DNA from: Peredibacter starrii
Lineage (GTDB): Bacteria > Bdellovibrionota > Bacteriovoracia > Bacteriovoracales > Bacteriovoracaceae
NCBI RefSeq assembly: GCF_034259205.1
Contig: NZ_CP139487.1
Coordinates: 744,001-808,000 of the forward strand
Length of the DNA: 64,000 bases
Reading direction: 5' to 3'
Each line of letters opens with the position of its first letter. Positions within the stretch are counted from its first letter, which is position 1. Position numbers and translations under genes: made by a program. This document shows, piece by piece, positions 1,665 to 5,859 of the stretch. The notes under the pieces are model-generated. The model was not told the DNA's origin and did no database searches. It was given only the letters and a program-made list of their open reading frames with translations.

Positions 1665-3475
1665 TGAAGTTCCTTCACCTCGTTTTGGTTCGGATTCATA
1701 AGCTTGCGCTGAAAATAGGTTGTCTCGACAATCCCTTCTTCCAACCAGTTAAACTCATCTTTTTCAATTCTTTGAGCTAGCTTATATTTTTCGTTATCTG
1801 AGTTATGCCAGAGTTCACGGAAAAGAATTTCAATTTTTCTACGTGAATTTTCACAGAATACATCGGCGAGGTCTTGAGCATCTTTGCCTAATTTATCAGC
1901 TTTAGATTGAGTCGCAGCCATTACATAAAGTTCAGTGGCGATATCGACCACTCGAAATAGGAACATCTGCCGATTTTGAAGACCAGGTCCATAGAACAGC
2001 ATTCCATGAAAAATTTGTCTGGCTAATTTCTTGGTCGATCGCTTGATGAAACTTAAGTTAGAGCCTCCAAATGGCCATACCATCCAGAGAGTTGGATACC
2101 AAAGTGCATAGAAGATAAATATCTTAGGAAGGGCCAGAATCTTTTGGATCATTCTCTTATTCTTGTCCAAGAGTACTCCGCTCACTTTCAGATGTGTGTC
2201 TACCGCTTCTCGAGCAATGAAGAGATGCATAATTTCAGTTGTGCCTTCGAAGATACGATTGATGCGAAAATCTCTCATCATCCTCTCTACTGGAATGTCT
2301 GCTTCGCCTCTGGCGCGGAGTGAATCTGAGGTCTCATATCCGCGTCCCCCCCGCATTTGAAGAAGGTCATCAACATTTTCCCAACCTGTTTCTGAACAAA
2401 AGAGTTTCGAGACAGCTGCTTCGAGACGAATATCATGATGGTTATCATATAAGGCAGTCGCGAGATCCGAGATTGCACCCATTGCGAATGTAGAAGAGGC
2501 GAGATCCGCGATCTTTTGAGCGATGGCTTCGTGTTTATAGATTGGTTTTCCCCATTGCTCCCGCTCGCGGCACCACAGGCGTGCAATCTCGAGCATCTTT
2601 TTTGAACTTGCTGCAACAGCCGCAGGAAGTGAGAGTCGTCCAGTATTAAGAGTAATGAGTGCGAGCTTAAGCCCTTTTCCTCGTTCCCATAGAAGATTTT
2701 CTTTGGGGATTTTGACATTATCAAAACTTAAAACTCCATTCTCTAGCGCTTTGAGTCCCATGAAGTGGCAGCGATGTTCAACCTTTACTCCTTCCCATTT
2801 CATCTCGACAATAAAAGCGCTGATGAGATCATCCTCTACGTGCCGGGCCATGACGATGATCACATCAGCTATCGTACCATTCGTACACCATAGCTTGTGG
2901 CCATTGAGTACGTAATGATCGGATTCTGTCGTCACTGTCGTTTCAAGATTCGCGGGATCAGAACCAACATCGGGTTCGGTCAGAGCAAAGGCCGATATTT
3001 CTCCTTGAGCAATTCGAGTGAGATATTTTTTCTTCTGCTCTTCATTTCCGAACATGATGAGTGGTTGAGGAACGCCAATCGATTGATGAGCTGAGAGTAG
3101 AGCAACGATGTTGGCATCTTTGGTTGCCGTTAGTTTTAAAATTTCATTGTACTCAGATTGAGTAAAACCATGCCCGCCGTATTCCTTACCAATTTTAAGA
3201 GCGAAACATTTCATTTCCTTCAAGCGATCGATAATCTGTTTCGGTATTTTTCCTTCACGATCGATGAGATCAGAATCAACTTCGTCTTGAAGAAACTGTT
3301 TATAACGAGCAAGAAAATCCAAGAAGTTTTCGTCTTTTAATACATTCTGTTCAGGGAATGGGTGAATAAGATCATAGGTAAACTTCCCCATGAACATATC
3401 TTTTAAGAAACTGGTTTTCTCCCATTCATCTCGACTTGACTCAGCTACCTGTAATGATTTTTCGAAGGTTTTCAT
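1658..3475 (-). CDS. acyl-CoA dehydrogenase
   Basis: This is a flavoprotein of the acyl-CoA dehydrogenase family, about 605 residues, longer than the usual ~380 because of a C-terminal extension of about 170 residues. Family marks visible are FALTEPDVGSDPANL (FAD/substrate region), NGHKLWCTNGTIADV, the LQMRGGRGYE segment and RDFRINRIFEGTTEI near the end of the core domain. The long form with a helical tail resembles FadE-like or VLCAD-like enzymes of beta-oxidation. A TTG lies two codons upstream, but the ATG at 3475 is the more natural start. The substrate chain length cannot be told. Confidence 0.9.
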   Translation of the reverse strand: MKTFEKSLQVAESSRDEWEKTSFLKDMFMGKFTYDLIHPFPEQNVLKDENFLDFLARYKQFLQDEVDSDLIDREGKIPKQIIDRLKEMKCFALKIGKEYGGHGFTQSEYNEILKLTATKDANIVALLSAHQSIGVPQPLIMFGNEEQKKKYLTRIAQGEISAFALTEPDVGSDPANLETTVTTESDHYVLNGHKLWCTNGTIADVIIVMARHVEDDLISAFIVEMKWEGVKVEHRCHFMGLKALENGVLSFDNVKIPKENLLWERGKGLKLALITLNTGRLSLPAAVAASSKKMLEIARLWCREREQWGKPIYKHEAIAQKIADLASSTFAMGAISDLATALYDNHHDIRLEAAVSKLFCSETGWENVDDLLQMRGGRGYETSDSLRARGEADIPVERMMRDFRINRIFEGTTEIMHLFIAREAVDTHLKVSGVLLDKNKRMIQKILALPKIFIFYALWYPTLWMVWPFGGSNLSFIKRSTKKLARQIFHGMLFYGPGLQNRQMFLFRVVDIATELYVMAATQSKADKLGKDAQDLADVFCENSRRKIEILFRELWHNSDNEKYKLAQRIEKDEFNWLEEGIVETTYFQRKLMNPNQNEVKELHH

Positions 3476-3540
3476 AGGCAAAGTATGAAAGCCATACCTT
3501 CAGAGAGCAATTTAAGAAATTCTGTAGATGTAATGAGTAA

Positions 3541-4381
3541 TATTTTTTAGCTGCAAGCTACCAATCAACAAAAACAAATATTTGTGTATCCAAAACTTGG
3601 CGTGAAATTTTCATCCAATGAAAAAAGGAGGGAAGGGAAAGTTCATGTTAAGCGCTCATCCAGTTCCATGTTAACGCGGACCCCTTGGTGTGACAGCACC
3701 AGGGGCTGTGGCAAAAGTCACAGTCTCACCCTTCCTGTTTTTTATTCTACGACATGTATTTCTCGAATGAAATGTCCAAAAGGTGCCAGGTTGCTTTCTC
3801 TGGAGGAAGTAAAAAATTCTCTCGGAGTCAGTTCTTATTTTTTAGACATACTTGTGTCTCTCAACAAAAACAAAAACTTGTGACTTTGAAACTTGGCCTG
3901 AATTTTTCATTAAAGGCAGAAGGAGGGAAGGGAAAGCTCATGTACCCCGCTGATTCAGTTCAATGCTACACGTTCCCCTTGGTGTTCCAGCACCTAGGGC
4001 CCCTGACAAACGCCACGGGTCTTACCCTTCCTTTTTACATTTTAACTTATTCTCTGAATGGAGCCTATGTCCAAAAGGTGCCAGGTTGCTTTCTCTGGAG
4101 GAAGTAAAAAGTTCTCTCAGAGGCAGTTCTTATTTTTAGACAGTAGTTGTGTCTCCAACAAAAACCAAAACTTGTGAATTTGAAATTTGGACTGAATTTT
4201 TCATTCAAGTCAGAAGGAGGGAAGGGAAAGCTCATGTTACTTGTTTATCCAGCTCATCGTTAACGTGGACCCCTTGGTGTTACAGCACCCTTGGTTCTGA
4301 AAAACTTCAGAATCTTGCCCTTCCTAATTTGTATTTTAACTCATTCTCTGAATGAAGCCTACGTCCAAAAGGTGCCAGGTT
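3541..4381. repeat. tandem array of ~295-bp structured repeat units (2.85 copies)
   Basis: Three head-to-tail units lie at 3541-3835, 3836-4130 and 4131-4381 (the last truncated). The anchor GGTGCCAGG occurs at 3782, 4077 and 4371, and GGAGGGAAGGG also recurs once per unit. Edges are conserved and the middle third is diverged. Each unit has two adjacent hairpins. Hairpin I has stem CCCCTTGGTG / CACC.AGGGG at 3681-3705 and its counterparts in units 2 and 3, with unit 3 weaker. Hairpin II (3706-3723, 4000-4019, 4295-4312) has a different stem sequence in each unit but keeps pairing and an AAAA/AAAC loop. The array ends directly at the RAYT transposase gene. Open frames inside it do not resemble proteins. 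Confidence 0.9.
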
Positions 4382-4385
4382 GATT

Positions 4386-5018
4386 ATGACTAGACCATTG
4401 ATTTTAAAGTCGGCAGTCCATCCCTATCACGTCTCTGCTCGTACACAGAGCGGGGACTTTTTCCCTATATCTTTAGATGAGGTTTGGGCGATCATGCTGG
4501 ATGAATTACAATGCGCTCGCAAAATCCACAATCTTTGCATTCATGCATTCGTATTGATGGGTAATCACTTTCATCTTCTCTGTCATACGCCCAACGAAAA
4601 CTTAGATCAAATTATGCATCAGTTTATGCGAAACACTTCTTTAAGAATCCGTCGTCAATCAAAGTCCTCTTTCCCATTGTGGGCAGGACGATACCGATGG
4701 AGCTTGATTGAGTCTCAAAATCATTACTACCAAGTGTATAAATATATTTATCGTAATCCTATCCGGGCCAAAATGGTTTCAAAGGTTGAGCACTATCCAT
4801 TTTCCACTTTGAAAGTCTCTTCATTTCCGATTCATTCCTACATTGCAATGTCATTCGCAGGAGAAGAAGGAGAACGTTTGTGGTTGAATGAGCCTTTTGA
4901 TAAAGAAGCCGAGGGCCTCATAAAGCTCGGCCTTAAGAAGCAGTACTTTGATGTTAATAAACGGAAATTAAAAATCTTCAACCGACTAACGGTCCCTAAT
5001 ATACCACCTCACGAGTAA
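4386..5018 (+). CDS. REP-associated tyrosine transposase (RAYT, Y1 / IS200-like)
   Basis: The 210-residue product from the ATG at 4386 starts MTRPLILKSAVHPYHV, as RAYT proteins do. A TTG two codons upstream is possible but less likely. The HUH metal motif is NHFHLLCH (His 61 and His 63). The tyrosine helix is YYQVYKYIYRNPIRA (Tyr 114-120). RAYTs are single-strand DNA nucleases that cut and move palindromic repeats next to their own gene. Here the gene follows unit 3 of the 295-bp array with no gap, which suggests that the array is its substrate. The 3' end overlaps the convergent downstream gene by 23 bp. The protein looks intact. Confidence 0.92.
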   Translation: MTRPLILKSAVHPYHVSARTQSGDFFPISLDEVWAIMLDELQCARKIHNLCIHAFVLMGNHFHLLCHTPNENLDQIMHQFMRNTSLRIRRQSKSSFPLWAGRYRWSLIESQNHYYQVYKYIYRNPIRAKMVSKVEHYPFSTLKVSSFPIHSYIAMSFAGEEGERLWLNEPFDKEAEGLIKLGLKKQYFDVNKRKLKIFNRLTVPNIPPHE

Positions 5019-5859
5019 GCGCCAAACTGTAAGTGCAGGTTTCACCAGTAACTTCGTCGTTCATGTTGAGTGTTCCGGTGAAAGTAATGTTTGATGCTTG
5101 ATCGTAGAAAACTCCAGAAAGATTTAACGTTTTACAATTCCCTGTAATGAATGTTGTACCTGGAATGGATCCACATTCTCTTCCAGTAATACTCACATTA
5201 TTTGATTGAGGAGAGGGAAGAAATATTCCAATCGTTGTGTAATCGTTATTGATTGAATTGATGTAATTTGAATACAAATTAAACTCTGTATTTGTTGCTA
5301 GCTCAATTCGCGCTTGCCCAGACGAACTAATATCGCATCGATTAGCATTATCTGAAACCTCATTAAAGTTTCCGGAATAAAGACCACAATAACCAGTGAG
5401 TGCACCGAAACCAATCACACAGTTTCCGGTCTGAGGACTCCCCCGATCAGTCGCTGTCATAATTCCAGGGTTGTTTGCAAGTTCGATTACAGTTCCAAGA
5501 TTGTCTTGTGCTTTTAGTGTGAGCGGAACAGTCCCGCTGATTATTCCTGCACCTTGCATGTTGATAACAATAGATTTTACCCCTTCCATTTCCTCGGTCA
5601 GGATAGTGTTGAAACTTCGACCGTTAGTGGTAACTGTTCCCGAGACAACCTGCGGACCCTTTTGAGCGTAAAAATTATCCCTGTATACACCTTGAATGGT
5701 GGAGGAGGTTTCATTCCAATCGATGGTATAATTAACGGTCACTGGGAGATCAGTGTCTCTTTGAGCGGAAAAAGAACCCTCTAATTTGAACTGGTAGCTT
5801 TGAGCAAGTACTGGGAAGGACAGGAGAAATACGACGAAAAACTTTACTAGAGGACTCAT
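4996..5859 (-). CDS. hypothetical secreted protein
   Basis: The start is set at 5859 because a strong ribosome site, AAGGAGG, lies 6 nt upstream and the product then begins with a clean signal peptide, MSPLVKFFVVFLLSFPVLA, cleaved before QSYQFK. The mature part (~268 residues) is rich in Thr, Gly, Asn and beta-strand patterns, with several Cys residues (RCDISSSG, TGRECGS, TGNCKTLN, GETCTYS) that could form disulfides. No family is recognised. It may be an envelope or secreted beta-sandwich protein. Confidence 0.75.
   Translation of the reverse strand: MSPLVKFFVVFLLSFPVLAQSYQFKLEGSFSAQRDTDLPVTVNYTIDWNETSSTIQGVYRDNFYAQKGPQVVSGTVTTNGRSFNTILTEEMEGVKSIVINMQGAGIISGTVPLTLKAQDNLGTVIELANNPGIMTATDRGSPQTGNCVIGFGALTGYCGLYSGNFNEVSDNANRCDISSSGQARIELATNTEFNLYSNYINSINNDYTTIGIFLPSPQSNNVSITGRECGSIPGTTFITGNCKTLNLSGVFYDQASNITFTGTLNMNDEVTGETCTYSLALTREVVY

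Follow-up and report, generated by a model that had tools for sequence, protein, structure and literature searches.

REP sequences are short palindromes of 20–40 bp with a GT[AG]G foot, present in many dispersed copies in a genome. The genes of the REP-associated tyrosine transposases (RAYTs) are described in PMC6006769 as single, vertically inherited genes that are kept for an uncharacterised benefit. In REP, BIME and REPIN sequences and in REPtrons, as presented in PMC2817692 and PMC6006769, palindromes and a repeated intergenic head lie adjacent to a RAYT. Structured leaders are described for two further transposase genes. In IS200, whose gene belongs to the same Y1/HUH superfamily as the RAYT studied here, the structured 5′ end of the transcript (tnpA leader/5'tnpA sRNA) regulates the transposase gene, according to PMC12594629. 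In ISPpu9, an IS inserted in REPs, the same role is assigned to a structured tnp 5′-UTR in PMC8450116. The ends of IS200/IS605 elements carry imperfect hairpins beside the Y1 transposase gene. Searches of the open PMC literature yielded no account of a conserved, structured element ahead of RAYT genes.

Here, we analysed a window of 64,000 nucleotides (positions 744001–808000 of the 4.15-Mb single-contig genome of Peredibacter starrii), in which a RAYT gene is directly preceded by a folded, tandemly repeated module on the same strand. The likeness to the IS200 and ISPpu9 leaders concerns position, strand and fold: in contrast to them, the module has a closing stem with inner hairpins, occurs in tandem copies followed by a REP-like head and accompanies a RAYT whose chromosomal locus is conserved. 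With REP elements and REPtrons it shares the adjacency to a RAYT, the palindromes and the repeated intergenic head, but its units of 294–295 bp lie in a single orientation and the RAYT is not flanked by inverted module copies. A sequence-only reading of the repeat had judged that it is not the usual REP, and we agree, since the 108-nt module is multi-branched, lacks the GT[AG]G foot and has three copies, all at the RAYT. Unlike in IS200/IS605, no right-end counterpart of the module was found, and the gene holds one locus in relatives. The array is most likely a structured transposase leader, tandemly duplicated, tied to a domesticated RAYT and absent from Rfam 15. A compensating fold that is fixed 5′ of a RAYT and repeatedly duplicated implies selection on expression or on the binding target of the protein. 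It also adds a structured element beyond Rfam 15 to the Bacteriovoracaceae, a poorly studied family of predatory bacteria.

The array was delimited by TRF at 3565–4382, with a period of 294, 2.8 copies and 80% matches, while the spacing of the 17-nt heads sets periods of 295 and 294. Both confirm the earlier claim of three units with a period of 294–295 bp, which occupy 3541–4381 head to tail (Table 1). Each unit runs from a TTGGCC block through the folded module and a TATAnC linker to the REP-like head; u3 ends four bases before the ATG of the RAYT, and the last head lies six bases ahead of it. Among the three units, identity reaches 100% in P1a and the REP head and 80–90% in the TTGGCC block, compared with 48–57% in P4. 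To this extent the edges of the units are indeed better conserved than their centres, as had been proposed. The proposal does not hold for u1, whose outer leader (60%) and linker (43–46%) have diverged too, nor after the head of u3, where the sequence is that of the RAYT gene and no repeat. A coding repeat was ruled out by the absence of a common open frame and by the periods of 295 and 294; no frame through the core stays open in more than 10 of 19 copies.

Table 1. Coordinates (window numbering) of the tandem units, their parts and the RAYT gene.
Feature	Position	Strand	Remark
Unit 1 (u1), farthest from RAYT	3541–3838	+	
Unit 2 (u2)	3839–4132	+	
Unit 3 (u3), head running into RAYT start	4133–4381	+	
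Conserved TTGGCCnnnAnTTTTCAT block before module 1; possibly promoter	3597–3614	+	also 3893–3910, 4187–4204
Module 1 (P1–P4)	3629–3736	+	101.9 bits (covariance model)
Module 2 (P1–P4)	3924–4032	+	71.3 bits (covariance model)
Module 3 (P1–P4)	4218–4325	+	95.4 bits (covariance model)
P1 of module 1	3630–3637 pairing with 3729–3736	+	19-copy alignment
P1 of module 2	3925–3932 pairing with 4025–4032	+	
P1 of module 3	4219–4226 pairing with 4318–4325	+	
P3 hairpin, GGTG/CACC core	module 1 3682–3705; module 2 3976–3999; module 3 core 4276–4289	+	
P4 hairpin of module 1	3706–3723	+	CTGTGGC-AAAA-GTCACAG
P4 hairpin of module 2	4000–4019	+	CCCCTGAC-AAAC-GCCACGGG, two mismatches
P4 hairpin of module 3	4295–4312	+	TTCTGAA-AAAC-TTCAGAA
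REP-like head GTCCAAAAGGTGCCAGG, 17 nt	3774–3790; 4069–4085; 4363–4379	+	
Small 6-bp hairpin CTTTCTCTGGAGGAAG past head	u1 3794–3809; u2 4089–4104	+	absent in u3
RAYT (REP-associated tyrosine transposase, Y1/HUH), 210 aa, ATG start	4386–5018	+	

The module of each unit comprises about 108 nt, with a long-range closing stem P1 (GGGAAGGG/CCCTTCC), a weak P2 region and the hairpins P3 and P4, the latter with a purine-rich loop that is mostly AAAN. The second hairpin of the sequence-only reading corresponds to P4, and its stems and loops, including the two mismatches in module 2, were found as described. That reading overlooked P1, the REP head within the unit and the small hairpin that comes with it, as well as the site directly before the ATG of the RAYT. 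Its mention of RAYT proteins was correct but fell short, since a RAYT gene directly adjoins the array. The P2 segment of about 30 nt has YGYT anchors and is exactly 30 nt long in 17 of 19 copies. We did not accept it as an established helix (81.6% of its cells paired, a single pair with a two-sided change), nor a general P5 hairpin in the linker, which gave a p below 0.05 by shuffling in only 7 of 19 copies. In five of 11 tandem pairs the P2 segment (e.g., window 3646–3675) evolves faster than the remainder of the unit (p 0.0001–0.006), an effect that is absent in the other six.

A covariance model was built from 10 copies, and an alignment of 19 rows (A5) was then fitted to it. Because its rows were aligned to a model made from 10 of its own 19 sequences, A5 favours the structure, and it is under this condition that 94.1% of the 437 structure cells pair, compared with 79.6% after shuffling and 49–58% in slid registers. 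In A5, which covers 19 copies from nine genomes, two-sided changes occur at 14 of 23 pairs. P1 has all of its cells paired and two-sided changes at five of eight pairs, and P4 has 92.6% of its cells paired and such changes at all five pairs. The P4 stems were also anchored at their loops and their arms swapped, a check that is independent of A5. The 10 distinct stems pair 4.7 of five positions with their own arms but only 2.2 of five with foreign arms, and full pairing occurred in two of 90 swaps; in this set, G147 was omitted for its odd loop, and the stems of G017 and G025 are shared with others. Both the A5 pairing and the swapped arms support the earlier suggestion that the paired changes reflect selection on the folded structure.

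For P4 of u1, u2 and u3, respectively 0, 9 and 0 of 500 composition shuffles were as low in energy, and the P4 segment folds better than most of its shuffles in all 19 copies (p ≤ 0.018). Whole-core z-scores average −2.8, with −1.2 for u2. At the level of whole units the energy is unremarkable (z −1.3, −1.6 and 0.0 for the three units); the case for the fold rests on the relatives. Strand evidence is mixed. Over all stems read on the RAYT strand, 41 G–U stand against 9 A–C cells, 21 of the G–U being within the doubtful P2; the RAYT strand is the more stable one in six of 19 copies, so that folding energy favours neither strand. Taken together, a conserved, covarying fold under selection as a single strand is supported. 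A known RNA family was excluded by the lack of Rfam matches: none across the nine loci reached the gathering score, nor did any in window 3000–5100 (e.g., 17.8 bits vs 50).

The covariance-model search that the sequence-only reading had suggested recovered 19 copies in nine of the 129 family genomes. Within the genus, the P. starrii genome, G010 and G025 hold three copies each, G024 two, and G003, G017 and G021 one each; in other genera, G142 has three and G147 two. A search of 368 genomes of the phylum, with 10 candidates scored per genome, returned the identical nine genomes. In the P. starrii genome no module beyond these three was detected at E ≤ 10, with 150 of 1690 first-look candidates scored. 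The expectation of many dispersed copies thus failed for the full repeat, with its three modules, and stood only for the 17-nt head with its 10 exact copies; with no further module among the scored candidates, a dispersed mobile repeat was rejected for the module. Among 80 named RAYT loci, one extra weak match was found (L270, 25.7 bits, E 0.007), which is rich in G/C runs and partly masked. Away from RAYT genes the module is nearly absent. In L270, from a Bdellovibrionaceae MAG, a closing stem and a long hairpin are located at 2291–2399, about 100 nt before the RAYT.

All 17 copies on RAYT-bearing contigs are situated upstream of the RAYT and on its strand, 15 in an array adjoining the gene and two one gene away. 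The distance from P1 to the ATG is 56–61 nt in five of the seven genomes with an adjacent copy, and 78 and 82 nt in the others. The two copies of G147 lie on a 5.4-kb contig without a RAYT, antisense to the genes there, and this genome has a distant RAYT elsewhere. In G021 an ORF6N gene is found between one module and the RAYT (L074, about 15.5–16.2 kb), and in G025 an AAA_14/DUF4143 gene (L072, 5148–6596), as if these genes had been inserted inside or beside the array.

Within the genus, 13 genomes have a RAYT orthologue (identity at least 50%), and seven of these carry the module, which none of the 13 remaining genomes does. It is missing at six of the 13 orthologues and is therefore dispensable. 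G009 and G012, which lack the module, carry another sequence with several hairpins at this site, and that of G012 folds with a z of −2.5. In the window and in 10 of 13 relatives checked, the RAYT is followed within about 4 kb by a UDP-glucose dehydrogenase gene (UGD); in G009, G010 and G142 it was not on the stretch examined. This RAYT–UGD neighbourhood is kept in most relatives of the genus irrespective of the module, so that the gene to which the module belongs is an orthologue inherited vertically, at which the module is variably present.

The TTGGCC block was matched genome-wide with at most one mismatch only in u1 and u2, which does not support it as a general promoter; the copy of u3 has two mismatches, as has one unrelated genomic site. 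In G024 and G021 no copy is preceded by the block, nor is the second copy in G147, and a similar block precedes module-less RAYTs in L029, L031 and L034. The linker has degenerate TATAnC-like letters 7–11 nt past the module, with a full match in 15 of 19 copies. On the + strand, a sigma-70 scan gave no promoter-like site and a terminator scan no site after P1; both scans were judged uninformative.

Usual REPs exceed 100 copies per genome, and the 17-nt head is far scarcer. Genome-wide, it has 10 exact copies and two with 1–2 mismatches, of which three are inside the units and nine outside, the latter mostly intergenic; a further nine matches with three mismatches are at control level. The most fitting reading of the head is a REP-like sequence that is non-canonical and low in copy number. 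Some REP-like subclasses without a GT[AG]G foot are described in PMC6006769. The small hairpin follows only some copies of the head: ACTTTCGCTAGCGGAAGT or a similar one trails two dispersed heads, and in u3 its place is taken by the start of the RAYT gene. In relatives, the counterpart of the head is the palindrome GTCGAAAAGGTAnCGnCTACCTTTTCGAC, which is dense only in G011 among the sampled genomes. There, nine such palindromic REPs occur in 80 kb (L081, L132–L135), unlike in the sampled relatives, with 0–2 in 60–80 kb in other module-less RAYT genomes and 0–1 in 41–80 kb in module-bearing ones. We do not claim that loss of the module unleashes the spread of REPs, because REP-rich stretches turned up in this single lineage alone.

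What these observations favour is a folded, cis-acting 5′ leader of the RAYT, probably RNA, which sets RAYT output and is tandemly triplicated, an explanation that we hold to be narrowly probable. It is favoured by the position of the module, by its single orientation, by a distance to the ATG that is constant in five of seven genomes and by non-dispersal, and P1, with 11 G–U and no A–C cells on the RAYT strand, also counts in its favour. Against it count the neutral folding energy of the two strands, the lack of a promoter-like site and the antisense copies of G147 without a RAYT. The leader would be present three times through tandem duplication, and the single-stranded fold would act in cis, most probably as RNA within the leader of the RAYT transcript, where it may limit or tune RAYT production. 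Feedback could arise if RAYT bound the head next to the start of its gene, and additional upstream copies would offer more binding or folding sites. Transcription of the array, an RNA rather than a ssDNA form, a lowered RAYT output and binding by RAYT are what we infer here. The main rival, possible but in our judgement unlikely, regards the module as a ssDNA element that is recognised and cut by RAYT, comparable to the subterminal hairpins of IS200/IS605 or to a REPtron. The REP head would then be part of the recognition site, and the tandem copies would be products of RAYT activity. This would suit a RAYT that keeps its HUH and Tyr residues, a REP-like head that is present in every unit and also dispersed, palindromic REPs that flank RAYTs in relatives, the orphan copies of G147 and a folding energy indifferent to strand. 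However, the module is not dispersed in its own genome, all 17 RAYT-linked copies share one orientation and there is no canonical GT[AG]G foot; moreover, the 108-nt multi-branched fold does not resemble known REP or IS ends.

Distinctly more doubtful is the idea that each unit is a small-RNA gene which starts at the TTGGCC block and acts in trans like the 5'tnpA of IS200, with copy number as dose. Each window unit has the block at a similar distance before P1, the structure is kept while the sequence of P4 drifts, and P2, nearly fixed in length, diverges faster in five of 11 unit pairs. On the other side stand the scan of the + strand, in which no terminator-like site follows P1, and the block itself, which is not supported as a general promoter in the genome and which G024, G021 and the second copy in G147 lack ahead of the module. 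A bolder case, which we consider very improbable, takes the array for a multi-copy structured RNA that is the dedicated partner of RAYT, the latter forming a ribonucleoprotein system instead of a plain ssDNA enzyme. A constant scaffold of P1, P3 and P4 would carry a variable segment of 30 nt, differing between tandem copies, that might direct or license the RAYT protein. As P2 is faster in only five of 11 unit pairs, a hypervariable, guide-like P2 was rejected as a finding and is kept solely for this case. Least probable of all is that intergenic DNA or a coding stretch was simply duplicated in tandem and that its fold has no function. The unremarkable energy of the whole units and the open frames in the window would agree with it, but it leaves unexplained the two-sided pair changes over nine genomes and the P4 stems that pair with their own arms and poorly with swapped ones, and the frames of the core are open in no more than 10 of 19 copies.

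With regard to the origin of the tandem copies, units within G010, G024 and G025 are 85–92% alike, whereas their likeness to units elsewhere is about 72% at most; the arrays were thus formed or homogenised separately, several times. The units of the window are 66–74% alike and hardly closer to each other than to the copy of G003. The module is no dispersed repeat but most likely a folded 5′ leader that was duplicated, at one orthologous locus, in several lineages. The RAYT tree, against which the module tree was set, is poorly resolved, with one of 12 inner branches starred and three label changes, and supports no firm order of gain and loss.

The RAYT of the window scores 27 bits against Pfam Y1_Tnp, above the cut-off of 23, and 72.8 bits against NCBIfam REP_Tyr_transpos, below the cut-off of 80; the latter model matches all 15 aligned relatives at E ≤ 0.01. 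Among solved structures, E. coli TnpArep 4er8 comes closest (E = 0.004). The protein contains NHFHL (HFH) and YYQVYKY, which we take to be the HUH motif and the catalytic Tyr region, respectively. Among named records, the same RAYT is found closest by in Bacteriovoracaceae MAGs, of which several are labelled Bacteriovorax stolpii. At locus L022, heads lie upstream of the RAYT only and in one orientation; in some relatives, palindromic REPs are present at both sides of the gene. In the RAYT of G142 (L120), the first HUH His is missing (RFH for HFH), and three tandem modules are kept together with a palindromic REP at the RAYT start. The G142 RAYT is possibly catalytically dead with a retained leader.

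Three of the dispersed heads, near 1107 kb (−), 2659 kb (+) and 3450 kb (+) of G000:C1 (L090, L091 and L094), are located about 70 nt past related, very short hydrophobic frames, two of which can be read as 24-aa peptides while one is degenerate. Each is followed by a GGGG-type stem-loop, and these may be genes of small membrane peptides that have a 3′ REP-like head in common.
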